In this document: piece after piece, positions 47,337 to 49,208 of the stretch
Numbering within the stretch: position 1 is the stretch's first letter
Layout of the letters: each line of letters starts with the position of its first letter
Source: Candidatus Gastranaerophilales bacterium
GTDB lineage: Bacteria; Cyanobacteriota; Vampirovibrionia; Gastranaerophilales; Gastranaerophilaceae
Reading direction: 5' to 3'
NCBI GenBank assembly: GCA_947589425.1
Contig: CANQAV010000004.1
Location: forward strand, 1 to 64,000
DNA length: 64,000 nt
The notes under the pieces: model-generated
The model's database searches: none
What the model was told of the DNA's origin: nothing
Seen by the model: only the letters and a program-made list of their open reading frames with translations
Translations under genes and position numbers: made by a program

Positions 47337-47760
47337 ACCCGAGCAGAGTGAGTCTTAGTTCGCAGGGCGAACTTGACGAACGAACGCAAGGGCACTAAAG
47401 AGTGCGAAGCCCGTGACGGCAGACTGTTGAAGTCTGACGGACAGGGCGTAGACATTTCTACGGCGACGTTTCAAATTCTTGCCCGAAGGGCGAATTTGCC
47501 AGGAGCAAACCCGAGCAGAGTGAGTCTTAGTTCGCAGGGCGAACTTGACGAACGAACGCAAGGGCACAAAAGTGTGCGCAGGGCGTGCGGGAAGGCGTTG
47601 AGCCTTGCCGACAGCCCGAAGACCGTACTATGCCGCCGTAGGATAATTGAGCAATGCGAAGCGACTTAGCGAAGCACTTGCGAGATACCCACAGGCGGAA
47701 AGCATGAGCAGAGTGAGTCTTAGTTCGCAGGGCAAACTTGACGAACGAACGCAAGGGCAC
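47337..47760. repeat. Three tandem copies of the clpC-type repeat module
   Basis: The module beginning GAGCAGAGTGAGTCTTAG and containing TTCGCAGGGCGAACTTGACG starts at 47337, 47509 and about 47705; a fourth copy in this window is at 4228. Units are about 172 and 196 bp. Between modules lie differing, hairpin-rich inserts, but GGCGACGT and AGGAGCAAACCCG recur. The minus strand of each copy keeps a frame ending [11 protein letters not shown] and stop. The copies are close but not identical. Sequence from 47760 to 47905 holds further hairpins such as AAAATTAGACC with GGTCTAAATTTT. Confidence 0.85.
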
Positions 47761-47907
47761 TAAGGTTGCTTCAGCCCTTTGCGAACGAAAAAGTGAGCAT
47801 TAGGAATGAAGTATGCGAAAGTGTGCGTAAGAAAATTAGACCGCAGGTCTAAATTTTCAAGCACTCGAGCTGTGCGAAGCTGAAGGTGTTTTATCCTCTA
47901 CCCCTAA

Positions 47908-47995
47908 GACCCAGAACACCTCGGCTTCGCCTGGGGATACAGGCTCACAAGGCTCGTACCTCGCCTGTTCGCTTTGTTAAATTCAGGGTGACAGG
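47908..47995. repeat. Long palindromic repeat
   Basis: An ACCC(T)GAAC-like left arm, the approximately 60-bp interior seen at 1-62, and right arm TTCAGGGTGACAG. The left arm has a change (CAGAAC). Confidence 0.85.
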
Positions 47996-48142
47996 GTAGA
48001 GCGACCTCTTTTCATGTGCACTTATTGAAATATTACTGCGTAAGATTGTCTGAGCGTAAGCGAGTTATCTGAAGCAGTGATATTGAACTTAGTGCACTAC
48101 AAGTAACCCACATAAAATTAAGCCGAGGTTTCTTTCTTTTTG

Positions 48143-48199
48143 CTTCGTTTTTCTTTCTTTGCGTTATGGCGTTTGAATGACAAAGAAAGAAAAATGAAG
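48143..48199. repeat. 19-bp stem hairpin repeat
   Basis: Arm CTTCGTTTTTCTTTCTTTG (48143-48161) pairs with 48181-48199 (one G-T pair) around a 19-nt loop. It is in a 600-bp region with no gene (47996-48448). It may be a REP-like element or part of an RNA. Confidence 0.8.
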
Positions 48200-48345
48200 A
48201 ATTAAAAAATTAAAAAAGAATAAAAGTTTAATTTTGTTAAGTGCACGTAAAAGAAGTTGTTTTCCACATATACTTAAGCATCTTACCAAGCTTAGGTATA
48301 CTCAATAATGTTGCAAACCATGTTCTTTTCATCCTCTACTCCTCA

Positions 48346-48432
48346 GACCCTGAACACCTCGGCTTCGCCTGGGGATACAGGCTCACAAGGCTCGTACCTC
48401 GCCTGTTCGCTTTGTAGAGTTCAGGGTGACAG
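48346..48432. repeat. Long palindromic repeat, best copy
   Basis: Left arm ACCCTGAAC (48348-48355), approximately 60-bp interior, right arm GTTCAGGGT, then GACAG. It ends 16 bp before the csoR stop codon. Compared with the short palindromes at 14692 and 15019, the loop is filled by an insert. Confidence 0.85.
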
Positions 48433-48448
48433 AGTGAAGCAGCATCTT

Positions 48449-48724
48449 TTAAGTTTTCATCAATTTTGAAATCACATCAATCATTTCTTTAATTTTTTGT
48501 TCGCTGTCTTTTTCGCTTCCTTGCGTGAGCGCTTCTTTAACACAATGATTAAGGTGTCCTTCAAGTATTTCAAAATTAATCTTTTTTAAAATGGATTGGC
48601 TTGCTAAAATTTGGTTTGAAATTTCAATACAATCTCTGTTATCTTCAACCATTTTTATAAGCCCGTCCATTTGTCCTTTTGTGGTTTTAAGGAGTCTTAA
48701 AACCTTTTTGGTATCTGCATGCAT
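48449..48724 (-). CDS. csoR: CsoR-family copper-sensing transcriptional repressor
   Basis: 91 residues, an all-helical dimer/tetramer. The copper ligands Cys32, His57 and Cys61 keep the exact C-25-H-4-C spacing of the copper sensor of Mycobacterium (Cys36, His61, Cys65), which favours Cu(I) over nickel. Members bind their operator when metal-free and release on Cu(I). It is the second gene of an operon, 15 bp after the Cys-rich gene, and a CsoR-type operator lies at the operon promoter (49157-49176), which implies autoregulation. No copper ATPase or chaperone gene is near. Confidence 0.9.
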   Translation of the reverse strand: MHADTKKVLRLLKTTKGQMDGLIKMVEDNRDCIEISNQILASQSILKKINFEILEGHLNHCVKEALTQGSEKDSEQKIKEMIDVISKLMKT

Positions 48725-48739
48725 TATATTGCTCCATAA

Positions 48740-49132
48740 TTATTTATCGCAATTGCATTTAATTTTTGATTTTTTTACAAAGAAATGTTTTTTTGCTTTT
48801 TTTGCGCATTTACATTTTTTGCCGCAATCGCAATTTTTTTCACACGTGCATTCTTTTCCTTCCTGACAGCCGCATTTACAATTTTCATCACATTTTTTGT
48901 GGCAATCACAGCTGCAATTTTCATCACATTTTTTGTGGCAGTTGCAGTCGCAATTTTTTTCACACGTGCAGTCTTTTCCTTCGTGGCATCCGCATTTGCA
49001 ATCTTTGGGGCAAGTTTTATGACATTTACAGCTGCAATTGGGGTCTTTACATCCGCAATCACATGCCATGGCGCAATTTGAAGCAAGGAATAAAACTCCC
49101 ATAAATGTAAGAATTGAAAGTATTTTTTTCAT
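48740..49132 (-). CDS. Exported Cys-rich metal-binding protein
   Basis: 130 residues with a signal peptide (about 1-23, ending ASNCAMA). The mature part has about 31 Cys in roughly 105 residues, in CxC and CxxxC patterns with His and Asp/Glu, arranged as repeated units such as KCGCHEGKDCTCEKNCDCNC followed by HKKCDENCSCDC, then a Lys-rich tail. It resembles a metallothionein secreted to the periplasm or surface. A strong promoter with a CsoR-type operator precedes it. The role is probably sequestering Cu(I) (inference). ATP-dependent pumps were not found. Confidence 0.85.
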   Translation of the reverse strand: MKKILSILTFMGVLFLASNCAMACDCGCKDPNCSCKCHKTCPKDCKCGCHEGKDCTCEKNCDCNCHKKCDENCSCDCHKKCDENCKCGCQEGKECTCEKNCDCGKKCKCAKKAKKHFFVKKSKIKCNCDK

Positions 49133-49156
49133 TACGGTTCTCCTTCTAATCTTTTA

Positions 49157-49208
49157 ACACCCCCCTAGGGTATGGTGTTATTATAGAACTGTATTTTGTT
49201 TTTGTAAA
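49157..49208 (-). promoter_or_regulatory. Copper operon promoter with CsoR-type operator
   Basis: On the minus strand: TTTACA (49208-49203), 17 bp, TATAAT (49185-49180), then a sequence ACCATACCCTAGGGGGGTGT (49176-49157) that covers the expected start site. The operator has the TACCC-N2-GGGGG arrangement of known CsoR sites in Bacillus and Listeria. A repressor here would block transcription. Confidence 0.75.

Follow-up and report, generated by a model that had tools for sequence, protein, structure and literature searches.

A predicted CsoR-type operon pairing its repressor with a putatively exported metallothionein-like protein in Gastranaerophilales

Introduction

CsoR is, in the textbook view, the switch for copper pumps. 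In the locus described here, the same switch and operator are tied to what is predicted to be an exported trap for metal, and no copper-class P1B ATPase was found in the genome. This raises the question of whether metal stress can be survived by sensing inside the cell and binding outside it, without a dedicated pump.

The locus lies in a 64,000-nucleotide stretch of contig CANQAV010000004.1 of Candidatus Gastranaerophilales bacterium, which as a whole is called the window below. Its genome, of 1.87 Mb in 32 contigs and with a completeness of 99.8%, was examined together with a survey of 383 genomes of the order. We describe the two genes and their control region, then the conservation of the pairing and the relatives of the repressor, and finally discuss which metal the operon may answer to and how it compares with known systems.

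Results

Promoter and predicted operator

The operon lies on the minus strand and reads, in order, promoter, operator, ribosome site, Cys-rich open reading frame and csoR (Table 1), with csoR starting 15 bp beyond the stop of the Cys-rich frame. In an alignment of relatives, the -35 element is mostly TTGACA, vs. the TTTACA of the window. The putative operator core sits inside an inverted repeat, AACACC...GGTGTT, and would cover the transcription start. In Streptomyces lividans, the type-2 CsoR operator has the consensus ATATACCCCTNAGGGGTATAT, with the plan TAC-N9-GTA (PMC3902906). The predicted window site follows the type-2 plan TAC-N9-GTR with G-tracts, in the form TAC-N9-GTG, and the corresponding site of another genome of the genus, G027, is exactly TAC-N9-GTA. 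Exact matches to ATACCCYNNGGGGGT in the 1.87-Mb genome are limited to the window site. Across the 383 genomes, 35 exact sites were counted vs. 3 for a reversed-pattern control, and most of the 35 adjoin a CsoR-family gene.

Table 1. Features of the operon and of its flank, in window coordinates.
Feature	Position	Strand	Description or evidence
Two-gene operon	48449-49208	-	
-35 element TTTACA	49203..49208	-	sequence; alignment of relatives
-10 element TATAAT	49180..49185	-	17-bp spacer to the -35 element; sequence and alignment of relatives
Predicted CsoR operator core ATACCCTAGGGGGGT	49159..49173	-	pattern match; conservation
Cys-rich, metallothionein-like protein, predicted exported	48740..49132	-	130 aa; signal peptide at about residues 1-23
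CsoR-family repressor	48449..48724	-	91 aa; PF02583, E=2.5e-24
124-bp element, two copies	47889-48012 and 48327-48450		90% alike
86-bp repeat, three spaced copies	47337-47787		79-91% alike; no clear genes there
Long imperfect hairpin	48110-48214		CTTTCTTTTTGCTTCG...AAAGAAAGAAAAATGAAG

The 124-bp element occurs in about 29 full or partial copies genome-wide, one of which touches the end of csoR, and Rfam gave only two matches over the region, the long hairpin included, both sub-threshold and at chance level. In four relatives (loci L038, L039, L040 and L048; genomes G025, G023, G011 and G048), a terminator-like hairpin of -17 to -22 kcal/mol occupies the gap between the Cys-rich gene and csoR; it could keep the dose of CsoR low, read-through control being possible. 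The window is devoid of it.

The Cys-rich protein

The first gene encodes a protein with 32 cysteines, 31 of them within the 107 residues that would remain after the predicted cut between AMA and C. It has 17 CxC motifs, two aromatic residues and its histidines in CHK motifs; these are metallothionein hallmarks (high Cys, CxC, few aromatics), and we infer metal binding from this composition. The N-terminal segment starts with MKK and has a hydrophobic core at residues 4-19 (mean hydropathy 1.97). The signal core and the AxA-type cut recur family-wide, while the Cys part is highly variable. Export is predicted from this signal peptide, the cleavage site of which was judged by eye, and the likely location is the periplasm rather than the surface or the medium. 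Lipoprotein sorting was considered; in our judgement, export by Sec with signal peptidase I is preferred, because no standard lipobox is found at the junctions between AxA and C, and position +1 is not a Cys in several relatives.

No Pfam, NCBIfam or PDB match was obtained for the window protein, and 11 members of the family had no match in Pfam or NCBIfam save chance low-complexity matches of one member. AlphaFold returned no confident structure (mean pLDDT 44); such a prediction is as expected for an apo-metallothionein, yet is no proof of one. The protein was also compared with the copper storage proteins (Csp) and set apart from them, given the lack of a Pfam or PDB match and of a predicted four-helix bundle. 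Homologue searches located the family in Gastranaerophilales only. Some exported relatives (L017-L019 and L021, in G019, G017, G026 and G022) carry a long Ala/Glu/Pro-rich tail, have neither csoR nor the operator, and apparently form a constitutive branch of the family.

The CsoR-family repressor

The second gene is the only CsoR-family gene of its genome. The nearest solved structure of its product is Geobacillus CsoR (PDB 4m1p, E=9e-18), which is also the best fold match (TM 0.83) of the AlphaFold model (pLDDT 92.5), and the three-helix PF02583 fold is found. The X-Y-Z ligands Cys32, His57 and Cys61 are present and invariant across the seven aligned sequences, and the second-shell "B" residue, Glu80, aligned to Glu81 of the Mycobacterium tuberculosis protein, is invariant in the same alignment. 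The second-shell "A" position, directly before Cys32, is occupied by Asp31 and not by Tyr. A Tyr is found there in 39/39 CopA-linked relatives and in seven of the 16 Cys-linked CsoRs, and the G008 orthologue has it; CDF-linked CsoRs, with C-H-C ligands, have Asp or Glu. Because the "A" Tyr is replaced, we file the window protein, on its residues, as a predicted CsoR/RcnR-family member with CsoR-type ligands rather than as a proven Cu(I) sensor. An N-terminal His2 is present but not conserved in the alignment. Two other sensor types were rejected: RcnR requires His-Cys-His-His ligands and the Z position is here Cys61, while CstR, a persulfide sensor, is expected to have no His at Y, where the window protein has His57.

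The first-pass annotation had announced a promoter with a 17-bp spacer and a CsoR-type site over the start, a signal-peptide protein with about 31 Cys and a CsoR with its three ligands intact, and had read the pair as an exported metallothionein-like protein in the place of CopA/CopZ. Coordinates and elements of the promoter were right, the Cys count and the ligands agree with those given above, and the reading of the pair suits a two-gene operon with a predicted CsoR operator and an export signal.

Conservation of the pairing

A search of csoR neighbours across genomes, which the first pass had proposed, found that each of the six genomes of the genus that carry the window csoR type (G000, G008, G011, G023, G025 and G027) has the Cys-rich gene as the immediate upstream neighbour of csoR; the seventh csoR of the genus, in G001, belongs to a different clade. 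The same order occurs in several other genera and in one other family. Because gene order and operator recur in this way, in the genus and beyond it, the pairing is, judged from these sequences, not due to chance.

In the whole order, 27 loci carry the window CsoR type, and the following classes reflect our own reading of the locus listings. The Cys-rich gene lies upstream of csoR, within about 100 bp, at 13 loci, and at two more a contig end cuts the locus with the Cys-rich gene, or a fragment of it, at the edge. Eight have a CDF exporter alone as partner. At one locus (G197, L080:188-1770), a single operator is followed first by a Cys-rich gene with an export signal and then by a DmeF-like CDF exporter, while csoR is convergent. 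The remaining three have neither partner, and two of their CsoRs have lost metal ligands. These two (L092:1498-1767 in G028 and L093:1498-1770 in G080), for which no Cys-rich or CDF partner was found, read C-Y-S and Y-H-C, and are possibly metal-blind repressors or decaying genes. A P1B ATPase adjoins csoR at none of the 27 Gastranaerophilales loci; for the same CsoR clade in Firmicutes and others, most named loci adjoin one (CopA).

The operator was found upstream of 14/15 csoR-linked Cys-rich genes vs. 0/17 of those without csoR (Fisher p=3e-8, to be taken as a guide only, because the genomes are related and the samples not independent). Upstream of Cys-rich genes without csoR, the promoter is often kept though the operator is gone. 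Homologues regularly lying apart from csoR and the operator had been named at the outset as a sign against the pairing, and the result is divided. Indeed, 29 of the 43 genomes with a Cys-rich match are without the window csoR type, which counts against it, but the inspected cases are also without the operator, which counts for it. Since both are missing from these cases, operator and regulator appear to be gained and lost together.

CsoR relatives linked to CDF exporters

Only the strongest forks of the CsoR tree are used, since the alignment behind it has 93 columns and the bootstrap did not reach convergence. Gastranaerophilales CsoRs group with Firmicute CsoRs that adjoin a P1B ATPase (support 95/88) and, inside this CopA-linked group, the window subclade branches with a Clostridium pair that is likewise CopA-linked (99/86). 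In genera g26, g37 and g46, a sister CsoR clade with the same operator is linked to a DmeF-type Co/Ni CDF exporter (DmeF-type loci L083, L084, L086, L087, L089, L090, L091 and L079). The g26 exporter, at 327.9 bits, passes the 250-bit cut-off of the DmeF Co/Ni equivalog, and that of g37, at 237 bits, falls slightly under it.

In another genus, g39, a Cys-rich peptide gene lies right before csoR (L209:1037-1509 in G270 and L210:1507-1981 in G136). The peptide (MAKCSNPKCKCENCTCGDNCQC..., 37-38 aa, 10 Cys) has no signal peptide and stands under a ATACCCCATGGGGGT site, and its CsoR is of a different clade, with an N-terminal HPCHK. From its sequence, this pair appears to be a metallothionein-CsoR operon in its own right, independent and cytosolic.

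Metal pumps and envelope redox in the same genome

A profile search of the window's genome found a single P1B ATPase, of the Cd/Zn class (463 bits vs. a Cd-class cut-off of 313.5, and 358 vs. a Cu-class cut-off of 397). No CopA or other Cu-class P1B ATPase was found by this search, whose scope was P1B ATPases and HMA proteins, and no CopA or CopZ is linked to csoR. The only HMA protein found in the genome adjoins the P1B ATPase; together with a MarR-type regulator, this free-standing protein and the ATPase (G000:C6:75151-77734, L058) likely share one operon. In G025, where the Cys-rich gene-csoR operon is present, there is no P1B ATPase match. The window's genome also encodes a VKOR; because of it, thiols may be oxidized in the envelope, which would make difficulty for a metal trap there.

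Discussion

A proposed self-regulated metal-stress operon

We consider it somewhat probable that the window locus is a self-regulated metal-stress operon. Apo-CsoR, judging by its family and operator, would sit over the start site and block transcription. A cytosolic thiophilic metal, of which Cu(I) is the likeliest candidate, would bind at Cys32, His57 and Cys61 and release the repressor. The Cys-rich protein would then be made, passed unfolded through Sec and left to hold metal in the envelope, so that less of it re-enters the cell, and CsoR, resynthesized from the same operon, would close the loop. The arrangement of G197 fits this scheme, since metal pumped out by the CDF exporter could be held beyond the membrane. 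The trap of the window genome, where no Cu-class P1B pump was found, may work on its own. A bolder version, for which we have only limited confidence, is that of a pump-less copper defence, in which a cytosolic CsoR controls nothing but an exported metallothionein, as the substitute of CopA in an otherwise Firmicute CsoR lineage. In this version the Cys-rich module would be swappable with a CDF pump within Gastranaerophilales, the two standing in tandem behind one operator in one genome.

Copper, the metal named in the first pass, is retained as the probable inducer, in the form of Cu(I), but without the certainty then given to it. Copper is favoured by the C-H-C ligand set together with the "B" Glu, by the type-2 operator and by the place in the tree beside the CopA-linked Clostridium pair; Asp31 in the place of Tyr and a sister clade whose CsoR and operator precede a CDF exporter speak against certainty. 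Asp31 and this sister clade also count against our explanation as a whole, as do the VKOR and the many Cys-rich homologues without csoR or operator.

Alternative explanations

The same operon might instead answer to Ni(II) or Co(II), with a repressor resembling InrS or DmeR and an exported Cys/His-rich protein buffering the metal. We find this unlikely but the most serious of the alternatives weighed here. The sister clade and its operator do control CDF exporters in g26, g37 and g46, one of them passing the DmeF cut-off, position 31 is like that of the CDF-linked members, InrS too has C-H-C ligands, and His2 could serve as a "W" ligand. However, the window subclade goes with the CopA-linked Clostridium pair, away from the CDF-linked clade, the Tyr is kept in part of the Cys-linked CsoRs, and His2 varies. 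Dense CxC thiolate proteins, moreover, prefer Cu(I), Ag, Zn and Cd over Ni and Co. Work on InrS cautions that the ligand pattern alone is no predictor of the metal (PMC4235346).

The other alternatives concern the Cys-rich protein itself. It could be a thiol/disulfide buffer or a structural envelope protein, induced in response to metal, which oxidizes envelope thiols, with metal binding secondary. The VKOR, the apparently constitutive homologues without operator or csoR and the long non-Cys tails of some of them would suit such a role, which we nevertheless hold for improbable: the gene is tracked by operator and csoR where both exist, and its Cys spacing, with the CxC and CHK motifs and few aromatics, is of the metal-thiolate type. 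More improbable still is an uncleaved or non-exporting signal segment, leaving a metallothionein of the MymT kind, tethered to the membrane or in the cytosol. Cleavage was indeed predicted by eye alone, and g39 has its cytosolic Cys-rich peptides under a similar operator, with another csoR type; but the MKK start, the hydrophobic core and the AxA-type cut persist throughout the family while the Cys part varies. The reading of an exported metal-binding protein under CsoR control is the one that we keep.

Comparison with known systems

With CsoR-copZA and csoR-copA (Bacillus subtilis, S. lividans, M. tuberculosis cso), the window shares the repressor family, its fold and C-H-C ligands, the predicted type-2 G-tract operator over the promoter and a small operon. 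In contrast, its effector is a predicted exported Cys-rich protein, with no adjoining CopA or CopZ. RicR of M. tuberculosis is a CsoR-family Cu(I) repressor of the metallothionein MymT and, separately, of exported lipoproteins (PMC10961391). The RicR regulon (MymT, LpqS, MmcO) also places a CsoR-family repressor over a metallothionein, and RicR-MymT, which the first pass had not named, is the nearest precedent for the pairing. However, MymT is small and cytosolic and the regulon is scattered, whereas in the window the metallothionein-like protein carries its own putative export signal and shares one operon with the repressor. Csp1 and Csp2 of Methylosinus are exported, have many Cys and have been proposed as a metal sink outside the cytosol (PMC5171941), as may be the case for the window protein. 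Csps are Tat-exported, pre-folded four-helix bundles, whereas the window protein is predicted to be of the Sec type, CxC-rich and without confident fold. DmeR-DmeF (Co/Ni) resembles the window in linking a CsoR/RcnR-family repressor to an export function, and in sister genera the same CsoR clade does go with a DmeF-type CDF, but the window operon has no DmeF and its ligands are C-H-C. Finally, InrS, the Ni sensor of cyanobacteria, likewise has C-H-C ligands without the second-shell Tyr; it differs by its tree position and by an extended His-rich N-terminus (PMC4235346).

In the literature searched, mostly open-access, we found no report of a CsoR operon with an exported metallothionein-like effector and, for copper or metallothionein in Gastranaerophilales or Melainabacteria, no account of a CsoR and Cys-rich pairing; the early suggestion that the pairing may be undescribed is in line with this. 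CsoR-type repressors with their operator and metallothionein-like proteins are known, and what we have not found reported is the exported metallothionein-like effector within a csoR operon.

For the uncultured Gastranaerophilales of the gut, the locus is a first functional entry point to how they deal with metals. Besides, CopA, a CDF exporter, an exported Cys-rich protein, or both of the latter, form a natural series in which the changing effectors of one repressor, and perhaps its changing metals, may be followed.
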